Shown here in pieces: positions 39,435 to 53,798 of a stretch of 64,000 nucleotides of DNA. Every line of letters starts with the position of its first letter. Position 1 is the stretch's first letter. The translations under genes were made by a program, and so were the position numbers. Source of the stretch: Rhodothermia bacterium (GTDB taxonomy: Bacteria; Bacteroidota; Rhodothermia; Balneolales; Balneolaceae); contig JAUICM010000001.1 of the NCBI GenBank assembly GCA_030427885.1, forward strand, positions 310,001 to 374,000, read 5' to 3'. The notes beneath the pieces were generated by a model that did not search any database, had not been told where the DNA came from, and saw only the letters and a list, made by a program, of their open reading frames with translations.

Positions 39435-41114
39435 TCAATCCTTTTTATATCCAGGTCCACGAACCACCCGCCCGGGAGTAGCGCCTGTGTGTTCTGTTTC
39501 TTTTAGCACTTGCTCCCCATTTACCCAAACATGATACACTCCGGTTGAAAGCTGGTGCGGATCTTCAAACGTGGCATGATCCTGAATGGTTTCAGGATCA
39601 AAAACGACCACATCTGCATAGTAACCGACCTTAAGAGCTCCACGCTTTTTTATTTTTAGATTTGATGCTGGCAGGGTAGTGAGTTTATAAATGGCCTCTT
39701 CCAAAGGGATAACCTGTTCATCCCGTACATATTTACCTAGTAATCGTGCGAAGTTACCATAGGCACGTGGATGTGGGTTACTGTTCAGAAAAACACCTTC
39801 GGGATTCAAAGAAGCGGCATCAGAGTCAAAGCTCATCCAGGGCAGGGCGATCTGTTTTTTTACATTTTCCTCCGACATCAGGAAATACACGGTTCCGACT
39901 CTCGATCCATCCTGTATGACCAGATCCATGGCTGTGATCTCAGGTGAAGTTCCTCTCATCCTGGAAACTTCTCCAAGAGTCTTGCCGGTAAGGTAGCGCA
40001 GGCTGTCATTCTGAAATCCTACCAGCAACACATTTTCAGGGGTTCCCGCTGCATACATCAGATTTTCCCAATCGTTGGTAGGTGTGGTCATTTCTTTGGC
40101 TACTCTTGCTCTGATCTGTGGATCTTTAAGTCGCTCGGCCCATTTTCCATATCCGCCTTCCTGGACCCATGGTGGCATTGCCGCATCAAGTCCGGTTGCC
40201 CCCGCAGTGTAATTGTACATGTCTGCGGTTATGTGGAGCCCGGCAGACCGGGCGGAATCGATCTTAGCAACAACAGCATCAAATTTATCCCAGTTTTCTT
40301 TTCCCGCCATTTTAAGGTGATATACTTCAGCGCGAATCCCGGCTTCATCAGCGATACGGATCAGTTCATCCAGACTTTCCATTAACCTGTTTCCTTCACT
40401 TCGCATATGCGAGATATACATTCCGTCATATTCAGCAGCCACTTTACTTATCTCGATCAGTTCTTCAGTGGACGAATAAAAGGCAGGAGCATAAATAAGA
40501 GAGGATCCGATCCCCAAAGCACCTTCTTCCATGCCTTCGTGAACCAGTGCCTTCATATTCTCCAGTTCTTCCGGAGTAGGGGGGCGATCGGCATATCCAA
40601 TTTGGTGAACCCGTAAAGTTGTAGCTCCGATAAAGGAAGCCACATTGGGGGAAATGCCGTGATCAACGAGTGCATCCAGATATTCGCCCAGGGTTGTCCA
40701 GGTGACATCATATTTTATATCCCCTTGATATTTCTGAGCGTTTTCTTTCATGGTTGGATTCAGAGGGCCACCGGAACCACCTTCCCCAAAGACCTCCAGA
40801 GTAACGCCCTGTTTGATATCACTCATAGAACGTCCATCCTCAAAAAGAGACTCAGTAGCCCAACTAAGCATATTGATGAAGCCGGGAGTGATAGCCATTC
40901 CTTTCGCGTCGACTTCTGTTTTACCCTTAACTCTGCTGAGTTTTCCAATAGCAGCTATGGTATCAGCATTGATGGCTATAGAGCCAGAGTAGGGGGTGTT
41001 TCCTGATCCATCATATATAATTCCGTTGCGTATTACTACATCATATTCTTTTACCGGGCCACATGATGAGATAAGAAAAGCGATCAATAAAACTCTAAAT
41101 CCATGAAAGTTCAT
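39435..41114 (-). CDS. Amidohydrolase-family lipoprotein related to N-acyl-D-amino-acid deacylase
   Basis: The 559-residue protein has a lipoprotein signal ending ISSC and an amidohydrolase fold like D-aminoacylases: YISHMRSEGNRLMESL, EVYHLKMAGKENW, ADMYNYTAGATGLDA and the closing composite domain (YYADVVVFDPETI). At the position where metal-dependent members have the HxH motif it reads PGFINMLSWATES, with no His pair, so metal binding or activity may differ. Typical substrates are N-acylated D-amino acids or peptidoglycan-derived amides. Its start overlaps the stop of the last DUF6090 gene by ATGA, tying it to the array. Confidence 0.75.
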   Translation of the reverse strand: MNFHGFRVLLIAFLISSCGPVKEYDVVIRNGIIYDGSGNTPYSGSIAINADTIAAIGKLSRVKGKTEVDAKGMAITPGFINMLSWATESLFEDGRSMSDIKQGVTLEVFGEGGSGGPLNPTMKENAQKYQGDIKYDVTWTTLGEYLDALVDHGISPNVASFIGATTLRVHQIGYADRPPTPEELENMKALVHEGMEEGALGIGSSLIYAPAFYSSTEELIEISKVAAEYDGMYISHMRSEGNRLMESLDELIRIADEAGIRAEVYHLKMAGKENWDKFDAVVAKIDSARSAGLHITADMYNYTAGATGLDAAMPPWVQEGGYGKWAERLKDPQIRARVAKEMTTPTNDWENLMYAAGTPENVLLVGFQNDSLRYLTGKTLGEVSRMRGTSPEITAMDLVIQDGSRVGTVYFLMSEENVKKQIALPWMSFDSDAASLNPEGVFLNSNPHPRAYGNFARLLGKYVRDEQVIPLEEAIYKLTTLPASNLKIKKRGALKVGYYADVVVFDPETIQDHATFEDPHQLSTGVYHVWVNGEQVLKETEHTGATPGRVVRGPGYKKD

Positions 41115-41908
41115 TTATTTACTCCTGCCTTGTACTTATCAATTTCTTCCAGAATGGTGTTGCAGAGCTTTACATTTTCAAGCAGGGGGTGCCAACCTCC
41201 GCGAATACTGGACAACCAAAACGCCAGTTCTCCTATCAACTCAGAGTTATTTTTAAGTTTGTTCAGAATCTCTTTTGATGCTGTTTCTGAAATTCCGGGT
41301 TCACATTTAACTAATTCCTGAATGTCACCAACGGTTTTATGACAGTTATCCCACATATAATTCTGGACTTCAAAAGGTATAAGCATCCTGGATAACTTTC
41401 GGTAGGGAGGATTAATACCGATGGTTTGGTCATACCGTTGTTTAGCACCCTCATAATAAAAAGCCATTCTATCACGAAGAAGAACATTATTAATGAGCGA
41501 TAGCTCGCCGGAACTCTTCAATTCCTCATAGGTAGAAGATTCTATGGTCATAGGCCAGATCTGACTGGCATTAAAAAAAGAGATCAGAATATCCCAGTTC
41601 GAATATCCTGTTACATCTTTTCCTTCTGCGTAGGATAACGCTAAGATCCCCGCTTCCTGTACCTGTTTGTAGAATTGAACATTGTATTCAAACACTTCCA
41701 GGTCAGTATGAATATTATCGGCCAGACGGTCCAGGTATTGAAGTTCTCGCTGATGTTCTTTTCGGCTTTCATTCCAGTTATTGACCTGCAGAGCAATTAG
41801 AATACCGATCATCACCAGCATGATTTCTCCAAGAGCATAGAGGAGGTATTTGCGAACATTGTCAGGCATTATGAGTGATTGACGTAATTGGCGGAAGAAA
41901 TGGATCAT
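41111..41908 (-). CDS. DUF6090 array gene 14 (last of the array)
   Basis: The 265-residue protein has the common N-terminus (FFRQLRQSLIMPDNVRKYLLYALGEIMLVMIGILIALQVNNWNE, residues 4-47; basic side in the cytoplasm). The shared second motif reads YEELKSSGELSLINNVLLR. The C-terminal domain is one of the longer ones, with ECSP-free Pro-rich 'NPPYRKLSRMLIPF' and a Cys pair (residues about 189 and 202) that could form a disulfide. It overlaps its upstream neighbour by 4 bp and the amidohydrolase start by 4 bp, so it is the bridge between array and accessory genes. Confidence 0.85.
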   Translation of the reverse strand: MIHFFRQLRQSLIMPDNVRKYLLYALGEIMLVMIGILIALQVNNWNESRKEHQRELQYLDRLADNIHTDLEVFEYNVQFYKQVQEAGILALSYAEGKDVTGYSNWDILISFFNASQIWPMTIESSTYEELKSSGELSLINNVLLRDRMAFYYEGAKQRYDQTIGINPPYRKLSRMLIPFEVQNYMWDNCHKTVGDIQELVKCEPGISETASKEILNKLKNNSELIGELAFWLSSIRGGWHPLLENVKLCNTILEEIDKYKAGVNK

Positions 41909-42705
41909 AATAAATCAGGTATAACTAAGGTGGAATCGAAGCGGGTAAATGATACCGATCGATTATCTAATTCCATTTCAAGCAAATGCATTAAATTATT
42001 ATACCTCCACTTTATGCTTTCAATTCTACGTCTTTTATTTTGTGCATCATTACTATGAAGATCCAGTAGGTCCAAAAAAACCTGATGCTCAAAAATATTT
42101 TTAGTTTCTTTAAGCTGTTTCGCCACAAAAGGGTTTACATCACCAATTGAAATCACTGATAGTTTCAGAAACTGGTTTTCTTGTTCTTGGGTATACAATT
42201 CGAGATCAGCATCACGTTCATGAATAAAATCAACGGTTCTGGGTAGATTGAACTCATAAAAATCGATGATCTCTTTTCGAAGTTCCTTATCCTTTATCTT
42301 GTCCAGTCCCTGTCGTGATAGACTTTCATAGGAACCATAAACAGGAGTAAAATTAAAGCCGAAGGAAACACCTCGATATTGTTCGATAAACTGTTCAGGT
42401 GAAACCGGTTGATCACTAACCGCCATCTTAAGCAAAGAGTCCGTCGACTGTTCTTTCATCTTTAAACGGGGTTCAATTCCTTCGAAGATCAATGCCATAT
42501 CCCTACTCATATCCGCATATAACTCACTTAATGCAAAATTCAGAAACTGCTGATCCTTCGCCGCTTCATTCCAGTTATTGATCTGCAATGCGATTAAGAT
42601 ACCGATCACCACGAGGAGGATCTCCCCAATGGCGTAGAGGAGGTACTTCCTCATGTTTTCAGAAAATATCAGTTTACGACGTATGTTTCGAGGGAAATGA
42701 AGCAC
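41905..42705 (-). CDS. DUF6090 array gene 13
   Basis: A 266-residue member whose N-terminus is FPRNIRRKLIFSENMRKYLLYAIGEILLVVIG, with Met where most copies have Val in the xNVRKYLLYA segment. Motif two is YESLSRQGLDKIKDKELRKEIIDFYE. The domain after the helix has a Gln/Glu-rich stretch (LYTQEQENQFLKL) and no cysteine. It overlaps genes 12 and 14 by 1 and 4 bp. Confidence 0.83.
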   Translation of the reverse strand: MLHFPRNIRRKLIFSENMRKYLLYAIGEILLVVIGILIALQINNWNEAAKDQQFLNFALSELYADMSRDMALIFEGIEPRLKMKEQSTDSLLKMAVSDQPVSPEQFIEQYRGVSFGFNFTPVYGSYESLSRQGLDKIKDKELRKEIIDFYEFNLPRTVDFIHERDADLELYTQEQENQFLKLSVISIGDVNPFVAKQLKETKNIFEHQVFLDLLDLHSNDAQNKRRRIESIKWRYNNLMHLLEMELDNRSVSFTRFDSTLVIPDLL

Positions 42706-43448
42706 TATTCAAGCTCCTCCAATTTTTTTAACACTGAAATCAGATGTCTCAATTGAGGGATCAAAGACCTGGACACATTCAAGGCGATCTGGTTATAGGC
42801 TAATTTCCAGTCAGCCAGTCTTTCAAAATAAGCAGCAGTTTCTATGGGTGAATTATTTTTCCAAATATCGTCGCGAAACTTTGAACCTGAATCAAAGAGG
42901 TAGTTCTCAAATGGAAAATGGGTATCTGCGTTTAAATTATCCAGATATTTCTCAGAAGAAACAGTCAGGAGATCCTCAATATTCAGATATCCTCTCTGCA
43001 GTTCTGATAAGTACTTTGCCAGTTCCTCCGGATAATAAGCTATGGCACCTGTTGATATTATGGTATTCAGAGTTGCCGAATTCATAGTGAAGTTTCTATA
43101 GACAAAAGGATCAAAATCATACCTGAGAATATACTGCAGAGTGTCATAGTTGAAGTCAGAATCTTTCAGTCTTTTTTCAAAACTCCGGATAAGTAAGCTA
43201 TCTGTTTTTGCTCTGCCCGATAAATATGTGAGCATCGTTGTATCCTGGGCAATATCATTAATGAGCGACTGGGTATAATTTCTTCTTGAGTTCTCATTAT
43301 GGCGCTTTTCATTCCAGTTATTCACTTGCAGGGCGATCAGAATACCAATGACTACAAGAAGAATTTCCCCCAAGGCATAGAGGAGGTACCTGCGAATATT
43401 ATCGGGCATTATGAGTGATTGACGTATTTGGCGAAAAAAACGAATCAT
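42705..43448 (-). CDS. DUF6090 array gene 12
   Basis: A 247-residue member with the 'IMPDNIRRYLLYALGEILLVVIG' form of the N-terminus, closest to gene 14 (both have MPDN). Motif two is degenerate here: LNTIISTGAIAYYPEELAKYL, with Asn-Thr in place of the usual YESLK. This suggests the domain has diverged in its function or ligand. It lies 6 bp downstream of gene 11, the widest gap in the array. Confidence 0.82.
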   Translation of the reverse strand: MIRFFRQIRQSLIMPDNIRRYLLYALGEILLVVIGILIALQVNNWNEKRHNENSRRNYTQSLINDIAQDTTMLTYLSGRAKTDSLLIRSFEKRLKDSDFNYDTLQYILRYDFDPFVYRNFTMNSATLNTIISTGAIAYYPEELAKYLSELQRGYLNIEDLLTVSSEKYLDNLNADTHFPFENYLFDSGSKFRDDIWKNNSPIETAAYFERLADWKLAYNQIALNVSRSLIPQLRHLISVLKKLEELE

Positions 43449-43454
43449 ATTTTG

Positions 43455-44198
43455 TTAATCAATTTCTTTTTCAATCATAGCTAAAAGCTTTTCCATTCGT
43501 ATCCTACTCTGTTTTATGGGGTCTTTACTACTGCCAGTGGAATTAGAAGATTTATTGAGAATATCTTTGAATACAGGGGAGTCGAGGAAGTTTAAATCTT
43601 CAACAATCAATTCTTTGTTAAGCTTTTGACCGTCCCTCGTAATTTGAACATCAAATAGCTGGTCGAATAATTCGAATTTTGCGTTAACTGTACCTCTTAT
43701 GATCTCATTTATCCATATATCCAGTGATGGAAGGCTGAAACTATAAAGTTCTGCGATGTTATTTCTCAAAGTATCATTTGATATCTTATTGAGTCCGCTG
43801 GATTTTAAGGCATCATAAGGTCCGGTATTATAGGCTATATAAACTCCAAATCCCCAAACCTCATCCAGGTGGTGCCTTACGCTGTCTATATCAAGATCTG
43901 ACTTATCTTTGGTATTGGAAGCGTCAACCAGATAAAATATTGATTCCTCCCACTCTTCAATTATACCTTCAAAGAATTGAAAGTTCTTAATATCATTTTC
44001 TAAAGATACCTTCAGTTCATTCAGCATTCGGATCTCGAATGCTCTGTCTTTTCTGGCTTCATTCCAATTATTGATCTGCAACGCGATCAGAATACCGATC
44101 ACGACCAGAAATATTTCACCTAGTGCATAAAGCAAATACTTCCTGACATTATCCTGCATAATTAATTTTTGGCGTATGTGGCGAAGGAAATGCAGCAT
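43455..44198 (-). CDS. DUF6090 array gene 11
   Basis: A 247-residue member with LRHIRQKLIMQDNVRKYLLYALGEIFLVVIG at the N-terminus; Phe replaces Leu in the GEI(L)LVVIG helix. Motif two is in its clearest form, YDALKSSGLNKISNDTLRNNIAELY at about residues 128-152. The C-terminus ends with the family's amphipathic helix (RMEKLLAMIEKEID). It overlaps gene 10 by 1 bp. Confidence 0.84.
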   Translation of the reverse strand: MLHFLRHIRQKLIMQDNVRKYLLYALGEIFLVVIGILIALQINNWNEARKDRAFEIRMLNELKVSLENDIKNFQFFEGIIEEWEESIFYLVDASNTKDKSDLDIDSVRHHLDEVWGFGVYIAYNTGPYDALKSSGLNKISNDTLRNNIAELYSFSLPSLDIWINEIIRGTVNAKFELFDQLFDVQITRDGQKLNKELIVEDLNFLDSPVFKDILNKSSNSTGSSKDPIKQSRIRMEKLLAMIEKEID

Positions 44199-44947
44199 CA
44201 GTTTATCTCCTGTTTTAAGAGATCCAGTATTTCCCTGTTGACTTCAATAAGAGGATCCAGCTCCAAAATAGCATCGTTGGTATAAACTATTCTGTTAACG
44301 ATGCTGTTTTCAAAACTGGGATCAAATAACATGGGTCTGTAATCCCCTGAGAACGAAGACTCTGGTACGTCATATCCAAAAATGGCATCGGCAATATTAG
44401 CGGAGGGGATGTGTTTTTCAACTACCGGTAAAAGCCACTCTTCATAGTGTTTTAAAGCTCTGAGTTGTTCTTCTCTGGCATCAAAAACTCTGTCATTCCA
44501 GGCAAATAAATGAACTTTTAAAGTATCATTCTTCAGTAAATGGATGTTTCCTGAAGAGACGCTGCTTTTTAACACTCCGTTTATGGGGTCAAAGGTCCAT
44601 AACCAACTGTTAACTACCAGTAAAGAATCGATTTTGCGTTCCGGGATTTCTGAATGTCTTTTTTCAATGATCTCGACTAAGTCATTGCCAGAACTGATCA
44701 CGTCGTTATAAAAGACCAGAATAGTATCTAATTGAGCCAGATTCATTTCAAATTCTGAGATCAGTCCATCTACTAAATTTATGCGCAATTCTTCATTTCG
44801 GCTGTTTTCAAGTGCCAGATTTACCTGAACAGCGATCAAAATCCCAATTACAACCAAAAGGATTTCTCCAACAGCATAGAGAAGGTATTTCCTAACATTT
44901 TCCTGGATGATGAGTTTCTGGCGTATCTGACGAAAGAAGTGAAGCAT
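44198..44947 (-). CDS. DUF6090 array gene 10
   Basis: A 249-residue member with 'IIQENVRKYLLYAVGEILLVVIG'. It lacks the NNWNE exit of all other copies and has VNLALENSRNEE instead, so it may leave the membrane differently. Motif two is weak (LKSSVSSGNIHLLKNDTLKVHL). Trp and Phe are enriched in the middle (SWLWTF, LFAWND). It starts 2 bp after the stop of gene 9. Confidence 0.82.
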   Translation of the reverse strand: MLHFFRQIRQKLIIQENVRKYLLYAVGEILLVVIGILIAVQVNLALENSRNEELRINLVDGLISEFEMNLAQLDTILVFYNDVISSGNDLVEIIEKRHSEIPERKIDSLLVVNSWLWTFDPINGVLKSSVSSGNIHLLKNDTLKVHLFAWNDRVFDAREEQLRALKHYEEWLLPVVEKHIPSANIADAIFGYDVPESSFSGDYRPMLFDPSFENSIVNRIVYTNDAILELDPLIEVNREILDLLKQEIN

Positions 44948-44949
44948 AG

Positions 44950-45705
44950 TTAGTTATCTAAATCCTCCTGTATCATTTGTTTTATTCTTTCAGCGCGGGG
45001 GATAACGAACCGGTTCTTATAATTTATTTCCTGAGTGCTTTGAAAAGAGATATGCTTCAATAGCTGTCTGAACCGGTCATTAATTCTCATTTCATCCAGA
45101 TCAAAACCAACGACTCCCAGCTCTTTGAGGACCCCATCAAATCTGGAGGCTTTCGAAGGGTCACGCATAAGGAATTGCACAGCAAGACCTTCTGCTTCTT
45201 TGATCCTTGCATCATACGGAGTACCCATTCGCTTAGAATCTTCAAAAATGGAGTAATATCCTGCGAGGTTTTTTTTCAGATCCACCGACTCGATCAATGA
45301 AAGTCTTCCGGAATTCAGGATCTCGTTATAGGTCGCAAAAGTAGGGGTATACACCAGGACCCAGCCAACACGGGTAAGTGCAACGGCCGTTTTAGTACTG
45401 TCGATATCCATTTGTGGGTCTTCCATGATCTTCAACAGGTATTCTGCCTGATCTATTCTGTCGGACATTTGTCCTAATTGCATTTCCAGATTCCAGAGAT
45501 CATCATCTATATCAAACAGAAGGTTTTCCAGAACAGATTGCTTAATGGTGGCTTCTTTACGGCTTTCATTCCAGTTATTCACCTGCAGGGCAATGAGGAT
45601 TCCGATCACTACCAACATAATCTCTCCAATGGCATAGAGTAGATATTTTCTGATGTTTTCCTGGATGATGAGTTTCTGTCGGATATGTCGGAGGAAATGC
45701 AGCAT
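44950..45705 (-). CDS. DUF6090 array gene 9
   Basis: A 251-residue member with 'IIQENIRKYLLYAIGEIMLVVIG'. Motif two is YNEILNSGRLSLIESVDLKKNLAGYY. The C-terminal half has a Phe/Met-rich stretch VQFLMRDPSKASRF and ends RAERIKQMIQEDLDN. It overlaps gene 8 by 1 bp, so its ribosome-binding site lies in gene 8. Confidence 0.83.
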   Translation of the reverse strand: MLHFLRHIRQKLIIQENIRKYLLYAIGEIMLVVIGILIALQVNNWNESRKEATIKQSVLENLLFDIDDDLWNLEMQLGQMSDRIDQAEYLLKIMEDPQMDIDSTKTAVALTRVGWVLVYTPTFATYNEILNSGRLSLIESVDLKKNLAGYYSIFEDSKRMGTPYDARIKEAEGLAVQFLMRDPSKASRFDGVLKELGVVGFDLDEMRINDRFRQLLKHISFQSTQEINYKNRFVIPRAERIKQMIQEDLDN

Positions 45706-46460
45706 TATTCTGTTTCTCCCTGCAACACGGAAAGAAGTTGGTTTACTTCTTCAATTCCCTGTTTATATACGGTTAATTGTATTTCAGTCTGATATTTTCT
45801 TGCGAAAATGAGTCCCTCTAGTTTCTTGTCGTTCAGGATCTCATTGTATCTGAGAGGCAGTTCTTCGCGTTTATCATTCTTATAGATCTCCATGGTAGGG
45901 TGGGTGGAGCCTTTCGACCAGATATAATTCAGTTTGTCAAAGAAATAGGCTTCGTACTCATTTTTAATGAAGGTATTGGAGATCGCATCCCGTTCCTGAA
46001 TGCGCTCTACTGTATTATAGTACTGATTGATCATATGCTGAACAGAGTCGGCCAGCACTCCGAATTCACCGGTATTGATAAGGACTTCGATGCCATTCTT
46101 ATTTGGCTGGAAATTATACTCAAAGATCACCTGTATGATGTCATAGTATATATCCGGGTCGGCCGGCTTGAGCAACATGAACCGGTCCATCATGTCAGTG
46201 GCACTTGTCTGGGTCAGCCCTAAACTATTGGTGATACTTGTAAGTTTCTCATGATCTTCATTCAGATTAGTTATCAGGATCTGAACATGTTTTTCAGCAG
46301 ATCGCTTAAGGGAACGCTCTTCATTCCAGTTGTTCACCTGAAGCGCGATCAAAATTCCAATGACCACCAAAAGTATTTCCCCGGTGGCATAGAGGAGGTA
46401 GGAGCGGACTTTAGACTTTTCCATTAGATTGTGTCGTATTTTGCTGAATATTCGTAGCAC
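45705..46460 (-). CDS. DUF6090 array gene 8
   Basis: A 251-residue member of the second N-terminal type, FSKIRHNLMEKSKVRSYLLYATGEILLVVIG, shared with genes 6 and 7. Motif two reads IEVLINTGEFGVLADSVQHMINQYY. The Glu/Arg-rich start of the outer part (NEERSLKRSAEKHVQIL) is a probable coiled coil. It overlaps genes 7 and 9 by 1 bp each. Confidence 0.83.
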   Translation of the reverse strand: MLRIFSKIRHNLMEKSKVRSYLLYATGEILLVVIGILIALQVNNWNEERSLKRSAEKHVQILITNLNEDHEKLTSITNSLGLTQTSATDMMDRFMLLKPADPDIYYDIIQVIFEYNFQPNKNGIEVLINTGEFGVLADSVQHMINQYYNTVERIQERDAISNTFIKNEYEAYFFDKLNYIWSKGSTHPTMEIYKNDKREELPLRYNEILNDKKLEGLIFARKYQTEIQLTVYKQGIEEVNQLLSVLQGETE

Positions 46461-47215
46461 TAAAAGTGGGTTAACTCAGTTTTGATCTCACTGATAAGAG
46501 CCTCAATTCTGCTTTTATTACTCGTATTAAGTAGTTCCTGAAATAAAGCATTATTAGCCTGTATGGTCAGTAGATGGTATCGGAAGCTGGTATCATTTCT
46601 GAGGACTTCATAATTAAGTGGCTCAGTAATACCCGGATAAAAAGCTCCCCCATTAAAATTGTTTCCCTGATACAAACTCTTGAAATAATACTGGCCTTTA
46701 TCATCAATGATGGAGGAAAGATGTTTTTCCAGTCGTTCCTCAAAAGCCCGGTGGAAATATAATTTCCCCTCAAAAAGATTAATGACCTTATTTTTAATCT
46801 CCATGTTTGAGATAATGTCGATCCCTTCCGACTTCATCGACTCATAGCCACCCTGATCCATTATTAACTTGGGAGAGATCAGGATATAGCTGATATGCAC
46901 CCCAATAGAATCATGATAGGGGAGTCTGCTGTCCATATGCTGAATCAGGATATCGGTTGATTCCATAGACTGATCTAGTGACTCTATATTTCCATTTATA
47001 TCACCCAGGGCTCCCTGCAGATCCATGGAGAGCTGTTCCAGGATCTGTTGTTCAATCACATGTTCTTTTCGCTCCTCATTCCAGTTATTCACCTGAAGCG
47101 CGATCAGAATTCCGATTACCACTAAAAGGATCTCTCCAGCGGCATAGAGGAGGTATGAGCGGACTTTAGATTGCTCCATTAGTTTGTGGCGTATTTGGCG
47201 GAAAAAGCGAATCAT
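46460..47215 (-). CDS. DUF6090 array gene 7
   Basis: A 251-residue member with FFRQIRHKLMEQSKVRSYLLYAAGEILLVVIG. The leading FFRQIR belongs to the first type, while EQSKVRSYLLYA is of the second type, so the N-terminus looks like a mosaic. Motif two is YESMKSEGIDIISNMEIKNKVINLF. The domain has a Gly/Asn/Tyr-rich loop (YQGNNFNGGAFYPG). It overlaps genes 6 and 8 by 4 and 1 bp. Confidence 0.83.
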   Translation of the reverse strand: MIRFFRQIRHKLMEQSKVRSYLLYAAGEILLVVIGILIALQVNNWNEERKEHVIEQQILEQLSMDLQGALGDINGNIESLDQSMESTDILIQHMDSRLPYHDSIGVHISYILISPKLIMDQGGYESMKSEGIDIISNMEIKNKVINLFEGKLYFHRAFEERLEKHLSSIIDDKGQYYFKSLYQGNNFNGGAFYPGITEPLNYEVLRNDTSFRYHLLTIQANNALFQELLNTSNKSRIEALISEIKTELTHF

Positions 47216-47937
47216 GATCTTTTATTGATTTCCTCTTCGATCTGAGTTATAAGTTGTCCCAGCTTTTGTATCGTGTTTTCATATTCTCTTAAGCCACCAC
47301 TTCTAACCTGAATCATTCTGGCCAGCATATTCAAAAACTCAGGATCCTTTTTAATACCCTCATAATCAATAAATGTAGCTGTAGCAGTAGTATCTGAAAA
47401 GCGAACATATTTCAGTACCATAGGAAGTTTAACATCATTGAATTCCCACTCCGATTTATCCACATCGTTGATCAGAAATTCGAATTTATACTCATACATC
47501 ATCGAAATAGATTTTTTCAATTCTTTATTCCGGATCAGATCCAGGCCTTTTGATTTCAATGATTCGTAAGCCGTATAGGTGAAGAAAGGAGAATGCCAGT
47601 TCAGGAGGGTACCAAAAGCAACCGAAAGGGAATCGGTTAAGGGAAGATTCTGATCAATAGTCGCTTGAATCAGTTTATTATTCTTATTTATAAGCAGATT
47701 CATTTGTCTACCTGCCATCAGATCCTGCCGGGAAGCGATCAGGTTTTCCCGGATATCGGCCAGCAACTGAAGTTCAGTTTTTTCCAGTATCCGGTTTTCA
47801 TTCCAGTTATTCACTTGTAATGCCAGCAAGATGCCAACCATGACCAGGGCGATCTCACCTACAGCATAAAGGAGGTAGGACCGGACTTTAGACTGTTCCA
47901 ATAGTTTATGTCGTATTTTGCTGAAAAAACGGAGCAT
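47212..47937 (-). CDS. DUF6090 array gene 6
   Basis: The shortest member (241 residues), with 'FSKIRHKLLEQSKVRSYLLYAVGEIALVMVGILLALQ', the type shared with genes 7 and 8. Motif two is the canonical YESLKSKGLDLIRNKELKKSISMMY (about 124-148). The C-terminal helix is strongly charged (LGQLITQIEEEINKRS). It overlaps genes 5 and 7 by 1 and 4 bp. Confidence 0.83.
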   Translation of the reverse strand: MLRFFSKIRHKLLEQSKVRSYLLYAVGEIALVMVGILLALQVNNWNENRILEKTELQLLADIRENLIASRQDLMAGRQMNLLINKNNKLIQATIDQNLPLTDSLSVAFGTLLNWHSPFFTYTAYESLKSKGLDLIRNKELKKSISMMYEYKFEFLINDVDKSEWEFNDVKLPMVLKYVRFSDTTATATFIDYEGIKKDPEFLNMLARMIQVRSGGLREYENTIQKLGQLITQIEEEINKRS

Positions 47938-48716
47938 TATTCAGCCTTTATTTCAGTATTGATTCGTTCGATCATTTGAAGAATATTTTTTTTGGTTTCA
48001 TCCAAATCTGCAACAACCACTTGCTGAACAGCAAGAATTCGTCCCAAAATCATAGAAAATGTTCCTTCTCTTCGAATACGCTCCCAGTCAGGATTAAGGT
48101 CTTCATAGGGATCTTGTTTCCAGTCTCCCTGTTGGGTTAGTGACTTTACTTTTTCTATCAAAATATCATTTGGTATGTAGTCGAAACGTTTGTCTTGAAA
48201 AGTCACTCCGTAACGATCCCGTTGTTCAAATTCACCTTGTTCACGAACAGAGGTTTCATAATAATTGAACATTAATGTTTTTAATGAATCGTCTTCTATT
48301 CGATTAGCCAATCCTGTGGAAACTAGTTCCCGATACCCCAGCTGATTTGGGAAAAACTCACTAATATCGTTAGTATCCATAAAACCTCTCCGAAGTCTGT
48401 TCAGATCAAACGCTGATGCATCTTTTTTTGAGTTGAAATAACTCAGGAGATACATTCCGTTACTATTTTTTTCCCTTAGATCTGTTTGAACCAGTTGTAT
48501 TTGTTCAAGATCCTTAAGCAGTTCACTTTTAACATTAAGCAAGACACTGTTTTTCTGACTTATTATTTTCCGTTCCTCATTCCAATTATTAACCTGCAGG
48601 GCAATGAGAATACCAATCACAACTAACAGGATCTCCCCAAGAGCATAAAGGAGGTACCTTCGCACATTATCTTGAAGGATGAGTTTTTGGCGGATATGTC
48701 GGAGAAAGTGGAGCAT
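47937..48716 (-). CDS. DUF6090 array gene 5
   Basis: A 259-residue member with 'LRHIRQKLILQDNVRRYLLYALGEILLVVIG', nearly the same as gene 4 in both protein and DNA over the first 115 bases. Motif two is YRELVSTGLANRIEDDSLKTLMFNYY. The outer domain has a Glu/Arg/Phe-rich middle (REQGEFEQRDRYGVTF). It overlaps genes 4 and 6 by 1 bp each. Confidence 0.83.
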   Translation of the reverse strand: MLHFLRHIRQKLILQDNVRRYLLYALGEILLVVIGILIALQVNNWNEERKIISQKNSVLLNVKSELLKDLEQIQLVQTDLREKNSNGMYLLSYFNSKKDASAFDLNRLRRGFMDTNDISEFFPNQLGYRELVSTGLANRIEDDSLKTLMFNYYETSVREQGEFEQRDRYGVTFQDKRFDYIPNDILIEKVKSLTQQGDWKQDPYEDLNPDWERIRREGTFSMILGRILAVQQVVVADLDETKKNILQMIERINTEIKAE

Positions 48717-49546
48717 TAATCCTCCTGATCAGTTGCTAAAGGATCATACCCAAGTTCCTTATTGATTAATTGTATGGCCTGTTCAGTAACACCAATCAGG
48801 TTGTCATAGCGACTTAGTTTATACCTTCTGAACTGGATGCTTTCTTTCAGCATGATTATAAATTGCTCATCGTTGGTCAAGGCTTCATAATCAAGGGGAA
48901 CATATCCGAGGGTTACGGTTTCTACGCCATATTCACTTTCTACCCTTCTTGGATAACTAAGAGTGTCCTGAGGAAAGTTAATCTCATACCTGAGGTTCAG
49001 ATCGGTATTGTACTTAAAGTGTGTAAAGTAATATTCCGAAAAATATTCATCCAGATCGGGAGTAAAGTGGCTTTCCTTGGATATCCTGGGCATGATAGAT
49101 TCATAGATGGCAAGAAGCAGATCTTCCAGTTCAGGGTTGTGTATCGAACTCACACCTAACTCTTTCAGTTTATCATATCCTGTGGTAACCGGAAAAATAT
49201 ATTCATCTGTTTTCAGGCACCAAAAATCAAAAGCCATCTCTGGCTGGTAAGGCTCGTTATTAAGCAATGCCTCCGTGATCTTCAGATTGCTTTGATATCC
49301 CATTCTGTGAATTACAACATCGCCACTCATATCAGCTAAATTACGATGGAGATCTTTGGCTATCTGAACGAGAATAGTTTTAACCGTTCGTTCTTTCTTC
49401 TGATTCTCATTCCAGTTATTCACCTGCAAAGCCAACAGGATACCGATCATTACTAACAGGATCTCCCCGATAGCATAGAGGAGGTACCTTCGAACATTGT
49501 CCTGAAGGATGATTTTCTGACGGATATGTCGGAGGTAGTGAAGCAT
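48716..49546 (-). CDS. DUF6090 array gene 4
   Basis: A 276-residue member with 'LRHIRQKIILQDNVRRYLLYAIGEILLVMIGILLALQ'. Motif two is YDKLKELGVSSIHNPELEDLLLAIYE. An insert of about 25 residues rich in Tyr and Phe (DEYFSEYYFTHFKYNTDLNLRY, in two halves) makes it the second-longest array member. The C-terminus ends in an unstructured DPLATDQED. It overlaps gene 5 by 1 bp. Confidence 0.83.
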   Translation of the reverse strand: MLHYLRHIRQKIILQDNVRRYLLYAIGEILLVMIGILLALQVNNWNENQKKERTVKTILVQIAKDLHRNLADMSGDVVIHRMGYQSNLKITEALLNNEPYQPEMAFDFWCLKTDEYIFPVTTGYDKLKELGVSSIHNPELEDLLLAIYESIMPRISKESHFTPDLDEYFSEYYFTHFKYNTDLNLRYEINFPQDTLSYPRRVESEYGVETVTLGYVPLDYEALTNDEQFIIMLKESIQFRRYKLSRYDNLIGVTEQAIQLINKELGYDPLATDQED

Positions 49547-49547
49547 A

Positions 49548-50276
49548 TTAACTACTCTTAGTGCGTTCGTTAATCAGGTTTATAAGATTTGAAGCCTGAT
49601 TTTGATACTCTTTTAAATGTGGGACGTAGATCCCGTAGAACATCTTATAGAAATAGGCTACCCTGTTTTTATAATCCGGATCATTCAACATATAATTAAT
49701 ATGATCGGTATCCGATGTTGACATAAGCCACGCTGAGAACCAGGGATAATTATCAATCCAATACTTTTGGTTATTTTCATATGCTATACCTATAACACTA
49801 ATGTCAACCTCTATTTCGGTGATGTAATACCGATAGAAATCATTGATGGCAATAAAAAGACTGTCATCTTTCATCCGGGAAAAATTATCAAATTGGCTTA
49901 GTAAGGTGTACCCCCTTTGCTCTAGGGAAATATCCGGGTACCCATTCATAATATCCCTGCACTCCATACATTCTATATATATCTCCATTGTCATTTCATC
50001 ATGTAATACCATTTTGAAATAGTTCTCAACGGGCATCATAGTATTGAGTAAGCCATCGATGATTATAATATCACTCTTCAGGTTTTCCCCGATCATAGCA
50101 TATACTGAGACTAATTCTTCTTGCTCTTTATTCTGTTCATTCCAGTTATTCACCTGAAGTGCGATCAGGATCCCGATCACTACCAACAGGATCTCCCCAA
50201 TTGCATAGAGAAAGTACCTTTTCACATTATCCTGGAGGATGAGTTTCTGGCGGATATGTCGGAGGTAGTGGAGCAC
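49548..50276 (-). CDS. DUF6090 array gene 3
   Basis: A 242-residue member with 'LRHIRQKLILQDNVKRYFLYAIGEILLVVIG' (Phe replaces Leu in YLLYA). Its outer domain carries two close cysteines (CMEC, about residues 103-106), unique in the array and possibly redox- or metal-linked. Motif two is degenerate: YTLLSQFDNFSRMKDDSLFIAINDFY. It begins 2 bp after the stop of gene 2 (m-type fusion) and ends 1 bp before gene 4. Confidence 0.83.
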   Translation of the reverse strand: MLHYLRHIRQKLILQDNVKRYFLYAIGEILLVVIGILIALQVNNWNEQNKEQEELVSVYAMIGENLKSDIIIIDGLLNTMMPVENYFKMVLHDEMTMEIYIECMECRDIMNGYPDISLEQRGYTLLSQFDNFSRMKDDSLFIAINDFYRYYITEIEVDISVIGIAYENNQKYWIDNYPWFSAWLMSTSDTDHINYMLNDPDYKNRVAYFYKMFYGIYVPHLKEYQNQASNLINLINERTKSS

Positions 50277-50278
50277 TG

Positions 50279-51559
50279 TTACTCCTCCCGGATATAGCGG
50301 ATATTTTTGATATCCATTGTGATTGGTTCACCGGATAAAGCAACAAAGATGGCAACCGCATTCAGGGTTTTCAGATCTGCTGTTGTAAAATCTTCAAGCG
50401 CAAAACGGTAGGTATTCCATTCCTGGCTAAGAATAATGGGAGCTCTTGTTTCCATTCCATCGTCAGGATCGAGTCGGTCTTTGATAGAGAATAGTATTTC
50501 CTGATCTGACTGATCTCCTCTTAATTCCATTTCTACCGCTGTAAATTTTGAGAAATCTTTGCTGGGTCGGGTATCACCGATACCCATTGTATCAACAACA
50601 AAGATAGCCGCACCCCATTCGATATCTTCTTCAAATTTAATAGTGAGGTACGCTGAATTGATCTGTTCCAATATTCCACCTTCTCCTAAGTTGGATTCGG
50701 TAATGAGAAGCAGGGAAGTGGGGTAGGAGCCATTCACCACTACATCCTCAATCCCGTCATTGCTCAAATCCATATCCAGAAAGGAGACCAATCGCATATT
50801 TTCTTCGGTAGTGAATAGCTCTTCCTGTTCCAGCATGAAAATGATAATGGAACCTATGCGATCGATGGTGGTAAAATATTCATCGAAATTATTGTAATAC
50901 CCGTTGGAAAAAACTGACTGAATGATACTGGAGTTAATCATTTTAAGAAATTCATCCTGATAACCGTAAAAGGCAATGGTATCATTCTGAAGGTAGAAAT
51001 CGGAAAAGTTAAAGCCCCATTCCATTTTGTTGTATTCTTTGACAGCATCGTCCCGTATATCCCGGTCCCTCCTTAATTCTTCCTCTATAATAGTAGCTCT
51101 GTCATAATACACATTAAGAAGTTCTTCCATATGAGTGCCCTGAATATTTGCGATGGCTCCAGTGCTCTTAAGTGCTTCAAAGCCCGACTTATTGGCACTA
51201 AATACACCAATGCCAGTGATAGTATTGTAATGAGCACCTAATGCATCCCGTTCACGAATATTTATTCGTTCTTTTTGTGAAATACTCACTATTCGGCGGG
51301 TTCCACTTTCAATCTGATCGTACACATAATTCAGTTCGCGGGCTTCTTTCAGGTCCGCTTCAATGTTCGAGTGTATATTCTGCAGGTATCCCCATAGCAA
51401 CTTGTTTTCCTGTTGCTGCTGGTTCCAGTTGTTTACCTGAAGCGCAATCAGGATCCCGATCACAACTAACAGTATCTCCCCAACAGCATAGAGGAGGTAT
51501 TTCCGGACGTTTTCCTGGAGGATGAGTTTCTGGCGTATATGTCGGAGGAAGTGGAGCAT
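50279..51559 (-). CDS. DUF6090 array gene 2, fused to a C-terminal jelly-roll-like domain
   Basis: At 426 residues this member is about 175 longer than its neighbours. Residues 1-250 are the usual unit: 'LRHIRQKLILQENVRKYLLYAVGEILLVVIG', motif two FEALKSTGAIANIQGTHMEELLNVYY. Residues about 255-426 form an all-beta domain: SAYLTIKFEE, WGAAIFVVDT, FTAVEMELRG, QEILFSIKDRLDPDDG, EWNTYRFALEDFTT, LNAVAIFVALSGEPITMDI. Strand order and the closing DIKNIRYI resemble galactose-binding/CBM11-like jelly rolls, which suggests glycan binding outside the cell membrane. The family of this domain is inferred, not certain. Confidence 0.78.
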   Translation of the reverse strand: MLHFLRHIRQKLILQENVRKYLLYAVGEILLVVIGILIALQVNNWNQQQQENKLLWGYLQNIHSNIEADLKEARELNYVYDQIESGTRRIVSISQKERINIRERDALGAHYNTITGIGVFSANKSGFEALKSTGAIANIQGTHMEELLNVYYDRATIIEEELRRDRDIRDDAVKEYNKMEWGFNFSDFYLQNDTIAFYGYQDEFLKMINSSIIQSVFSNGYYNNFDEYFTTIDRIGSIIIFMLEQEELFTTEENMRLVSFLDMDLSNDGIEDVVVNGSYPTSLLLITESNLGEGGILEQINSAYLTIKFEEDIEWGAAIFVVDTMGIGDTRPSKDFSKFTAVEMELRGDQSDQEILFSIKDRLDPDDGMETRAPIILSQEWNTYRFALEDFTTADLKTLNAVAIFVALSGEPITMDIKNIRYIREE

Positions 51560-51562
51560 GAT

Positions 51563-52306
51563 CTATTTCGCCCGTGTTAATTCCAGAATTCTCATACTCA
51601 GGGTATCGGCTCTGTTTATACCATTCAGTGAAGTTTGGTTGAAAAAGAGGGTGTTATCCATGTAATTCTCAAATTTCAGATCTTGAAACATAGAATAGGG
51701 ATCATAATTCAGATTACTTTCCCCGGTCCATACATACCCACCATAGGTATCCATTTTTTTGAAAGACATATGTTCAGACATATAAGGAAGTAATACTTCA
51801 TTGGTCCAGGTATCCGTCTTTTCTTCCCTCATTTTTACATAATTCATGATGGTTTCCCACTCATAGATCTTATTAATCAACTCCTGATCCTGAATGAGAT
51901 TCAGTTTCCCTGATTGGGTAATATTATTTACCGAAGCATTTGAAATGGTGAAATCAGTGGGAGGGAGTAATCGGAAAAACAAGGAATCGATGTTCACATT
52001 CATCATTTCAGCTCTGCTTTTTCCGATGAGGTTCATTAATTGCATGCCACTTTCGATCACTCCATTCAGATTTTTTTGGGACTGACCGATCAGAGCTCTG
52101 TTTTGCTGGAATTCATTGTGAAGGCTTGATAAGAGCTCACCAGCTTCTTTTTCAGACCTGCGTTCTTCATTCCAGTTATTCACCTGAAGGGCTATAAGGA
52201 TTCCTATGACAACCAGAAGTATCTCACCAACAGCATAGAGGAGATAGGCACGGACTTTTCCTTGCAAAAGTAGTTTTTCCCTGATCACCCGAAAAAAGCG
52301 CAGCAT
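51563..52306 (-). CDS. DUF6090 array gene 1 (promoter-proximal)
   Basis: A 247-residue member with 'FFRVIREKLLLQGKVRAYLLYAVGEILLVVIG', the type with KVR(S/A)YLLYA seen also in genes 6-8. Motif two is VNNITQSGKLNLIQDQELINKIYEWE. It is the first gene of the run: the 141 bp upstream hold no gene and two copies of AGACTTATTG. It ends 3 bp before the fusion gene. Expression of the whole unit should depend on the promoter here. Confidence 0.84.
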   Translation of the reverse strand: MLRFFRVIREKLLLQGKVRAYLLYAVGEILLVVIGILIALQVNNWNEERRSEKEAGELLSSLHNEFQQNRALIGQSQKNLNGVIESGMQLMNLIGKSRAEMMNVNIDSLFFRLLPPTDFTISNASVNNITQSGKLNLIQDQELINKIYEWETIMNYVKMREEKTDTWTNEVLLPYMSEHMSFKKMDTYGGYVWTGESNLNYDPYSMFQDLKFENYMDNTLFFNQTSLNGINRADTLSMRILELTRAK

Positions 52307-52351
52307 AGAGACCCAAGTTAATTATTGCATGCTCATGTACCCAAATCATGC

Positions 52352-52416
52352 AGACTTATTGTAATGCCTTTAGCTCAATAAGACAAGTAGCTTAGTTAAA
52401 TGCTTGAGACTTATTG
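52352..52416. promoter_or_regulatory. Direct-repeat region upstream of the DUF6090 array
   Basis: The ten bases AGACTTATTG occur at 52352-52361 and again at 52407-52416, 55 bp apart, in the 141-bp gap before the array. Two spaced identical sites in a promoter region suggest a regulator that binds in pairs. I could not assign a -33/-7 promoter with confidence. Confidence 0.35.
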
Positions 52417-52447
52417 GCTCGATAATAAAAGTTTAAAAATAACTAGT

Positions 52448-52999
52448 TCAGTTCATTTTATTCAGTTTCGCTTCATATTCAGCTTCTAGTGGCATGTGGT
52501 ATTTCCAGAATCCTGAGGGTGCTATTCCGGAGAGTGTGTCTCGTAAAATATTGAGATGAGTATGCCAGCCCGCACTCACGCCCACTTTGAAGTTCATACT
52601 ATCCGGAATTCTCTTGTGAGTGAGTACAAGCCTCACGGTTTTATGATCTATTTCAGTGAGTTCAAAGACCACTTCAGAAACCCCGTCATCGCCTTCATCC
52701 CATGTATAGGCGAGGAGGGAATAGGGATCCCAGGCAGTGACTTTCCCATAGCTGGTGCTTTCTTCTTTCATATTCTTGTACTTCTCCGGAAGGGGTTCAT
52801 ACTCATCCATGAAATGTTTGTGATTGAAATGATGGGTGACTTTTCCACCAACTTTAGCTTCCACGTCGCCATGGGCCAGCCACTTTCCCTTTTTATCGGA
52901 TTCGGTCAGGAACCCCCATATCAATTCAGGAGTACCGGGCAGGATGCGTTCAAGTTGAAGGGTTTCCTCGTTTAAGAATGTTCCGTAATCACTGTTCAT
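52448..52999 (-). CDS. SRPBCC/AHSA1-domain protein
   Basis: The 183-residue protein has the AHSA1 pattern: LERILPGTPELIWGFLTESDKKGKWL at the N-terminus, then GKVTHHF, LLAYTWDEGD and VRLVLTHKRI, ending in a C-terminal helix that closes the Bet v 1-like cavity. Such proteins bind hydrophobic ligands or chaperones. It is the last gene of an ArsR-controlled unit of four, 8 bp after a second AHSA1 gene. Confidence 0.85.
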   Translation of the reverse strand: MNSDYGTFLNEETLQLERILPGTPELIWGFLTESDKKGKWLAHGDVEAKVGGKVTHHFNHKHFMDEYEPLPEKYKNMKEESTSYGKVTAWDPYSLLAYTWDEGDDGVSEVVFELTEIDHKTVRLVLTHKRIPDSMNFKVGVSAGWHTHLNILRDTLSGIAPSGFWKYHMPLEAEYEAKLNKMN

Positions 53000-53007
53000 T
53001 GGTTTCC

Positions 53008-53475
53008 TTATTTAGTTAAAGAAGTAAGGTATTGTTCAAGCCTTCCAATAGTTTGTTTCTGTCCTTCCAGTGCTCCGAATTCCTCGATAACGTAATCAAG
53101 ATCTTCTTTGGTTTTGAATGACATATCCATGACCATCTTCGTTTTTCCATCCATTTCAGAAAAACTAACGATCACATAGAATGCATCATCGGAATTCTCA
53201 TCGCTCATTTGCAGGTATTCCAAAAGGTGAGGGCGGTCGATCTTCTGGAATCGGATCAAATTGGGGTAATCAATACCATCAGGGCCATGCATCATGAATT
53301 TCCACTCGCCACCTTCTTTCAGTTCAAATTTATCGGTGGTTATAGTGAATCCATCCGGACCAAACCAATGTGCCAGGTGGTCGGGATCTGTCCAGGTTTC
53401 GAATACGAGTTCAATTGGAGCATCGAATATACGGGTGGTAATAAGCTGTTGGTCCTTTCGTACAGTTTCGTTCAT
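53008..53475 (-). CDS. SRPBCC/AHSA1-domain protein
   Basis: The 155-residue protein has the typical RIFDAPIELVFETWTDPDHLAHWFGP opening (in two halves either side of VFE), GGEWKFMMHGPDG and the closing helix EFGALEGQKQTIGRLEQYLTSL. ArsR-AHSA1 gene pairs are widespread; the ligand is unknown. The start overlaps the stop of the ArsR gene by 4 bp. Confidence 0.88.
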   Translation of the reverse strand: MNETVRKDQQLITTRIFDAPIELVFETWTDPDHLAHWFGPDGFTITTDKFELKEGGEWKFMMHGPDGIDYPNLIRFQKIDRPHLLEYLQMSDENSDDAFYVIVSFSEMDGKTKMVMDMSFKTKEDLDYVIEEFGALEGQKQTIGRLEQYLTSLTK

Positions 53476-53798
53476 TTCTGATCCTTATTCTGAATTTTGT
53501 TGAGATAGGCTTCCAGTTTATCCAGACGCTGATTCCAGAGTTTGCGGTTCTTTTCAATCCAGTCAGATACAGGCTTGAGCTGATCTGGTTTGAGTTCACA
53601 AATCCGTTCACGGCCTTCCTGTTGAATATCTATCAGATTGCATTCTTCCAGCACTTTGATATGCTTCGAAATAGCAGGTCTGCTGATATCGAATTGCTCT
53701 GCAATGGCATTCAGGTTCATGGGTTCGCCTGAAGCAAGCAGTGTGATTATTTCTCGTCGGGTGGGATCAGCGATCCCCTGAAATACATCTCTTCTCAT
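53472..53798 (-). CDS. ArsR-family transcriptional regulator
   Basis: The 108-residue protein has the winged helix-turn-helix of ArsR regulators: FQGIADPTRREIITLL, NAIAEQFDISRPAISKHIKVLEECNLI and a wing with GRERICEL. It lacks the CxC metal site (ELxVCDL) of metal-sensing members, so another signal is likely. It probably represses its own operon through the two palindromes upstream of the DHFR-like gene. Confidence 0.9.
   Translation of the reverse strand: MRRDVFQGIADPTRREIITLLASGEPMNLNAIAEQFDISRPAISKHIKVLEECNLIDIQQEGRERICELKPDQLKPVSDWIEKNRKLWNQRLDKLEAYLNKIQNKDQK

Follow-up and report, generated by a model that had tools for sequence, protein, structure and literature searches.

Within a 64,000-nucleotide stretch of the genome of a Rhodothermia bacterium (contig JAUICM010000001.1, positions 310,001 to 374,000; hereafter the window), fourteen consecutive genes begin alike and then diverge strongly. 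How can the starts of neighboring genes stay so similar while the remainders differ, and what might such a row of genes do?

The array in the window

The fourteen open reading frames occupy positions 41111-52306 on the minus strand, in the order g1 to g14 (Table 1), with successive junctions of +3, +2, +1, -1, -1, -4, -1, -1, +2, -1, +6, -1, and -4 bp. The original prediction, made from the sequence of the window, of fourteen same-strand DUF6090 genes in tight succession is borne out: the gaps range from -4 to +6 bp, and the conserved 5' segment, here called the N-block, is found in 14/14. The host genome (4.15 Mb) carries two more copies, both solo (C2:200 kb and C9:48 kb). Having 14 of 16 copies contiguous is far from chance. 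The array had also been taken to be a whole unit, expressed as one. Its tight, co-directional layout makes co-transcription likely, judging by the sequence, but the row does not stop at g14. It runs on into an overlapping gene for an Amidohydro_3 lipoprotein-like protein, which is possibly the 3' end of the array transcript if the two are co-transcribed. The sole sizeable gap lies upstream of g1, and sigma-70-like promoter matches in the region are not commoner than in shuffles. Just upstream of the array, and in the same direction, are genes for an ArsR-type regulator and two AHSA1 proteins (window 52448-53798).

Table 1. Features of the DUF6090 array and its borders (window coordinates)
Feature	Coordinates	Strand	Length	Remarks
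Upstream gap	52307..52447	-	141 bp	Sole sizeable gap, upstream of g1; weak sigma-70-like site at 52386-52358
g1, DUF6090	51563..52306	-	247 aa	First gene of the array; N-block = first ~144 bp (52163-52306)
g2, DUF6090	50279..51559	-	426 aa	Additional C-terminal region of ~165 aa
g3, DUF6090	49548..50276	-	242 aa	
g4, DUF6090	48716..49546	-	276 aa	
g5, DUF6090	47937..48716	-	259 aa	
g6, DUF6090-like	47212..47937	-	241 aa	Under the Pfam cut-off; has the N-block and the same outer superfamily
g7, DUF6090	46460..47215	-	251 aa	AlphaFold2 pLDDT 90.7, all-helical
g8, DUF6090	45705..46460	-	251 aa	N-block subtype common to neighbors g6 and g7
g9, DUF6090	44950..45705	-	251 aa	
g10, DUF6090	44198..44947	-	249 aa	AlphaFold2 pLDDT 93.4, topology of g7; 70% outer-domain relative in G007 (L106)
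g11, DUF6090	43455..44198	-	247 aa	66% identical outer-domain relative in L050
g12, DUF6090	42705..43448	-	247 aa	Outer domain unjoined to the others at profile level
g13, DUF6090	41905..42705	-	266 aa	
g14, DUF6090	41111..41908	-	265 aa	Last gene of the array; N-block near that of g12 (80% DNA); 56% outer-domain relative in L050
Amidohydro_3 lipoprotein-like gene	39435..41114	-		4-bp overlap with g14

By sequence, all fourteen genes are DUF6090. This family is Pfam PF19578, and its curated cut-off of 23.5 bits is passed by 13 of the 14 array proteins, with g6 at 19.4 bits. The family had been described as occurring in Bacteroidota and Balneolota with no known function; indeed, arrays are seen across both phyla, and the PF19578 entry gives no function. 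Nor does that entry, which the window genes otherwise fit, describe array organization or recombination. In the literature searched, DUF6090 is not mentioned and its arrays are not described.

Among the fourteen array proteins, residues 1-48 have a mean pairwise identity of 74% (60-90%), whereas the remainder after residue 48 averages 16% (7-25%), values that support the predicted common cytoplasmic and membrane part with divergent outer parts. The first 144 bases of the genes are 61-83% identical as DNA. Each protein has a basic N terminus, a hydrophobic stretch at residues ~27-43 that is evident in the sequence, and a long outer part. The membrane segment starts with a conserved GE and ends with QxNNWNE. 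By the positive-inside rule, a basic N terminus lies in the cytoplasm, which would place the outer part in the periplasm and make these predicted single-pass inner-membrane proteins. A prepilin-like N terminus (hydrophobic segment, early glutamate) was rejected by eye, the G and E being adjacent rather than five residues apart.

The expectation of fourteen different outer domains did not hold. Profiles of the outer parts (C-only profiles) unite 12 of the 14 members, so that at least 12 form one superfamily, and AlphaFold2 models of g7 and g10 (pLDDT 90.7 and 93.4) share an all-helical topology: a short N-terminal helix, a ~78-residue helix that includes the membrane segment and extends outside, short helices, and two more long helices. 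The hydrophobic stretch is helical in both. Structure prediction had been suggested as a check on the outer domains; for these two it yielded the common topology but no match in the PDB, and none among viral folds, at E<=0.001. Weaker fold matches were to generic helical bundles and were set aside, and a profile search for solved relatives found none. With the C-only profiles, the outer part of g2 matches several array members at 94% over short stretches. The extra C-terminal region of g2 has weak similarity to CBM_11 (E=0.06), which is not significant.

DUF6090 arrays in relatives

DUF6090 is present in 14/59 relatives and in 58/392 genomes of a phylum-wide sample, at 0 to 85 copies per genome (47 in G007, 85 in G163). 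Among 77 loci and some further stretches, the longest uninterrupted series on one strand include 18, 16, 15, 14, and 12 genes, and the 280 adjacent gene pairs have a median spacing of 1 bp; at 14 genes, the array in the window is long without being unique. Genome G163 is a single contig of 4.1 Mb in which clusters lie at 1.81-3.86 Mb, with nearly all copies there on one strand. The original prediction had held that scattered single copies in relatives would reduce the array to a chance cluster. The picture is mixed: in many relatives the family is absent or present as solo copies, but long arrays recur in two phyla, and because of this recurrence we do not regard the array as a chance cluster.

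Across loci there is no conserved gene neighbor, the commonest neighbor family being found in 11 loci at varying distance, and between arrays there is no conserved gene order. Some outer domains have orthologues that are 50-70% identical in other genera. With a mobile element in mind, g10 was compared with plasmid and phage collections and gave no match. VOC-like small lipoprotein genes and SnoaL-like genes recur beside DUF6090 in unrelated genomes (L104:11993, L117:11139, and L074:10951; L039:4301, L099:7210, and L093:8088).

Two further observations concern the anchor. At L077:3819-5597 and L033:532-1593, a sulfatase lipoprotein and an alpha/beta-hydrolase-like lipoprotein, respectively, carry a fused N-block of ~28-40 residues, and from their sequences these genes look as if unrelated genes next to an array had captured the 5' block. 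One outer domain (~55% identical) sits on another anchor, KEFxMLFLAIxLGFFVENxRE, at L099:9208-9969 and L039:5522-6280 as compared with L038:2443-3192. This alternative anchor on a shared outer domain suggests that the superfamily is broader and that its anchors are of several types.

Histories of the gene start and the outer domain

What the original prediction missed is that the start of each gene and its remainder appear to evolve separately, by recombination. In 32/32 genomes, N-block identity is higher within the genome than between genomes. Trees of 120 genes from 10 genomes differ in their genome labels: the N-block tree requires 24 label changes versus 88 with shuffled labels, and the outer-domain tree 87 versus 89. 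The outer-domain sequences are poorly alignable and their tree is poorly resolved, so the tests described next weigh more. N-blocks are closer within array clusters than between clusters of one genome in 7/7 genomes (p<=0.041), whereas outer domains are closer within array clusters than elsewhere in the genome in only 1/7. In the window's own genome, the best N-block match lies inside the array for 13 of the 14 array genes (one tied), whereas the two solo copies have N-blocks closer to those of other genomes. Because solo copies of the same genome do not share the N-block, genome-wide co-adaptation of N-blocks to one partner is disfavored as the sole cause of their homogeneity. N-block similarity also declines with distance along the array in the window (p=0.027) and in both G007 and G163 (p=0.0002 for either), although the trend does not extend to every array tested. 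What the window displays is array-local N-block similarity without outer-domain similarity, a statistical signature rather than a dated event; none of its N-block pairs has an identical tract of >=26 bp in common, and hence a recent event cannot be picked out there.

Ordinary tandem duplication and divergence, in which the need for membrane insertion would keep the N terminus under strong purifying selection while the outer domain drifts, would account for the head-to-tail order and for an N-block protein that is conserved across two phyla. It would not lead one to expect what is seen in codons. In cross-genome orthologue pairs, the synonymous codon identity of the N-block is below that of the outer domain in 50/63 (Wilcoxon p=9e-8), even though the N-block is the more conserved part at the protein level; in pairs of isolates only, it is lower in 13/14 (p=4e-4), with smaller effects. 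Moreover, windowed identity switches sharply at about codon 48 in relatives, and in 6/7 genomes the outer domains of an array are no closer to each other than to those elsewhere in the genome. For the relatives, the breakpoints described next already contradict duplication and drift, and we consider it a poor candidate, and quite improbable.

Breakpoints between individual loci take three configurations. The same outer domain occurs with different N-blocks in L089:3221/L094:7049, where codon identity is 0.96 in the outer domain and 0.40 in the N-block (p=1e-12), and in L043:6087/L055:14597 (p=7e-11). The same flank and N-block lead into different outer domains in L086:7338/L050:7687, with identities of 81-97% upstream and 85-98% in the N-block, then 53-58%. 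Finally, the N-block is changed between near-identical flanks in L086:8205/L097:4639 (p=1e-8, upstream ~100% identical) and in L050:13333/L097:10762; in the latter pair, L097:10762 has an N-block that shares 93% identity with the adjacent paralogue and 79% with its outer-domain orthologue. In one case, a single gene has been gained or lost between L086 and L097. The clearest breakpoint cases each include at least one metagenome-assembled genome, but assembly collapse is an unlikely cause because the N-blocks are only ~70-85% identical. Over 32 pairs, the median dN/dS of the outer domains is 0.17, a ratio by which these domains are under purifying selection and hence maintained. Hypervariable point mutation was rejected as the source of diversity on account of this low dN/dS, which points instead to old divergence and module exchange.

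Relatives thus show exchange at the edge of the block, the gain or loss of a single gene, and outer domains under purifying selection. On these comparisons, outer-domain exchange very probably occurs in the DUF6090 family; that it also shaped the array in the window, a step taken from the relatives, is probable with less assurance. The best explanation overall, to which we give an even chance, is a modular cassette array in which the conserved 5' block acts as a recombination anchor for a swappable, periplasm-facing repertoire. Gene conversion or crossing-over at the conserved 5' ends would keep the first ~47 codons alike among array members, and outer-domain cassettes would be gained, lost, and exchanged, between genomes too, with breakpoints near codon 48. 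Exchange should be easy since, in a head-to-tail array, each variable part sits between two conserved 5' blocks.

Known systems and candidate functions

In its organization, judged from the genes themselves, the array resembles tandem-lipoprotein accordions and polyimmunity loci, set apart by a conserved, recombining part that lies inside the coding sequence. The Staphylococcus aureus accordions csa1 and lpl consist of paralogues that are 46-82% identical overall and that vary in copy number through recombination between homologous stretches (PMC7360770). As in DUF6090 arrays, these are tandem paralogous genes for membrane-anchored exported proteins. The DUF6090 anchor, in contrast, is a predicted transmembrane helix, with no cysteine lipobox after the hydrophobic segment in any of the 14 array proteins, and only the 5' ~141 bp are alike, the outer parts being ~16% identical. 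Among relatives, the single gene gained or lost between L086 and L097 is an accordion-type change in copy number by recombination between paralogues; no such change was observed in the window itself.

Homogeneous polyimmunity loci and rAID orphan-immunity arrays, which are frequent in Bacteroidota, are made of co-directional short genes (~100-300 codons) of one superfamily whose content varies between strains (PMC3482391, PMC12247911). The DUF6090 array shares co-directional short genes of one superfamily and variable content. However, the defining features of rAID are a tyrosine recombinase and intergenic motifs that are conserved (PMC12247911), while DUF6090 gaps of ~0 bp leave no room for such motifs and the conserved element is within the coding sequence. 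Around the array in the window, no tyrosine recombinase gene was seen. Polyimmunity loci are matched in the tandem paralogues of one superfamily; no immunity family or linked toxin was found. Polymorphic toxins likewise combine a conserved N-terminal part with C-terminal modules that are swapped by recombination (PMC3482391), an arrangement also seen here; DUF6090 proteins, however, have no toxin domain, secretion domain, or immunity gene beside each member.

No partner, ligand, toxin, or defense family was found for DUF6090, and defense and immunity families gave no hit in PADLOC, NCBIfam, or the PDB. Content that varies, modules that are exchanged, outer domains under purifying selection, one anchor in common, and no fixed partner together lead us to propose, by analogy with polyimmunity loci (PMC3482391) and rAID arrays (PMC12247911), tentatively and at less than even likelihood, a periplasm-facing recognition or immunity repertoire, whose members would do the same job against different targets from one common anchor. 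A repertoire for ligand sensing, with outer domains that bind different small molecules and a membrane part that signals to one shared partner, would also use a common anchor. The transmembrane helix is predicted to extend without a break into the outer helix, a feature of many sensor proteins, and some loci neighbor hybrid histidine kinases and periplasmic hydrolases. Yet there is neither a conserved neighbor nor a dedicated transducer, only ~20 residues make up the cytoplasmic part, and N-blocks differ between arrays of one genome and so are unmatched to a single genome-wide partner; we think sensing unlikely.

The original prediction also raised hetero-oligomeric assemblies. Fourteen proteins could join in one envelope complex through the common transmembrane segment, the operon fixing their stoichiometry, and this is in keeping with the tight, operon-like layout, with the polar residues that are conserved in the membrane segment, and with the long, helical outer domains. 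A complex of defined subunits, however, would be expected to retain its members, and the idea is therefore weakened by a family with 0 to 85 copies per genome, no fixed order or member set, and many solo copies. It ranks somewhat below sensing in our estimation.

The recognition or immunity repertoire, carried further, would place these loci in a phylum-wide class of cassette arrays on the chromosome that has not been described before. Their ~141-bp anchor-coding block would double as the recombination site, and periplasmic recognition or immunity modules would be collected and exchanged in Bacteroidota and Balneolota without a dedicated recombinase. This broader proposal is speculative, and we regard it as somewhat doubtful. 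DUF6090 is nonetheless a large, unstudied family of membrane proteins, reaching 85 genes in one 4.1-Mb genome, whose organization appears modular and recombining, and it may add a new case in which coding sequence doubles as a recombination anchor. If its outer domains do form a repertoire for recognition or immunity, they would give an experimental handle on how environmental Bacteroidota meet many external challenges.
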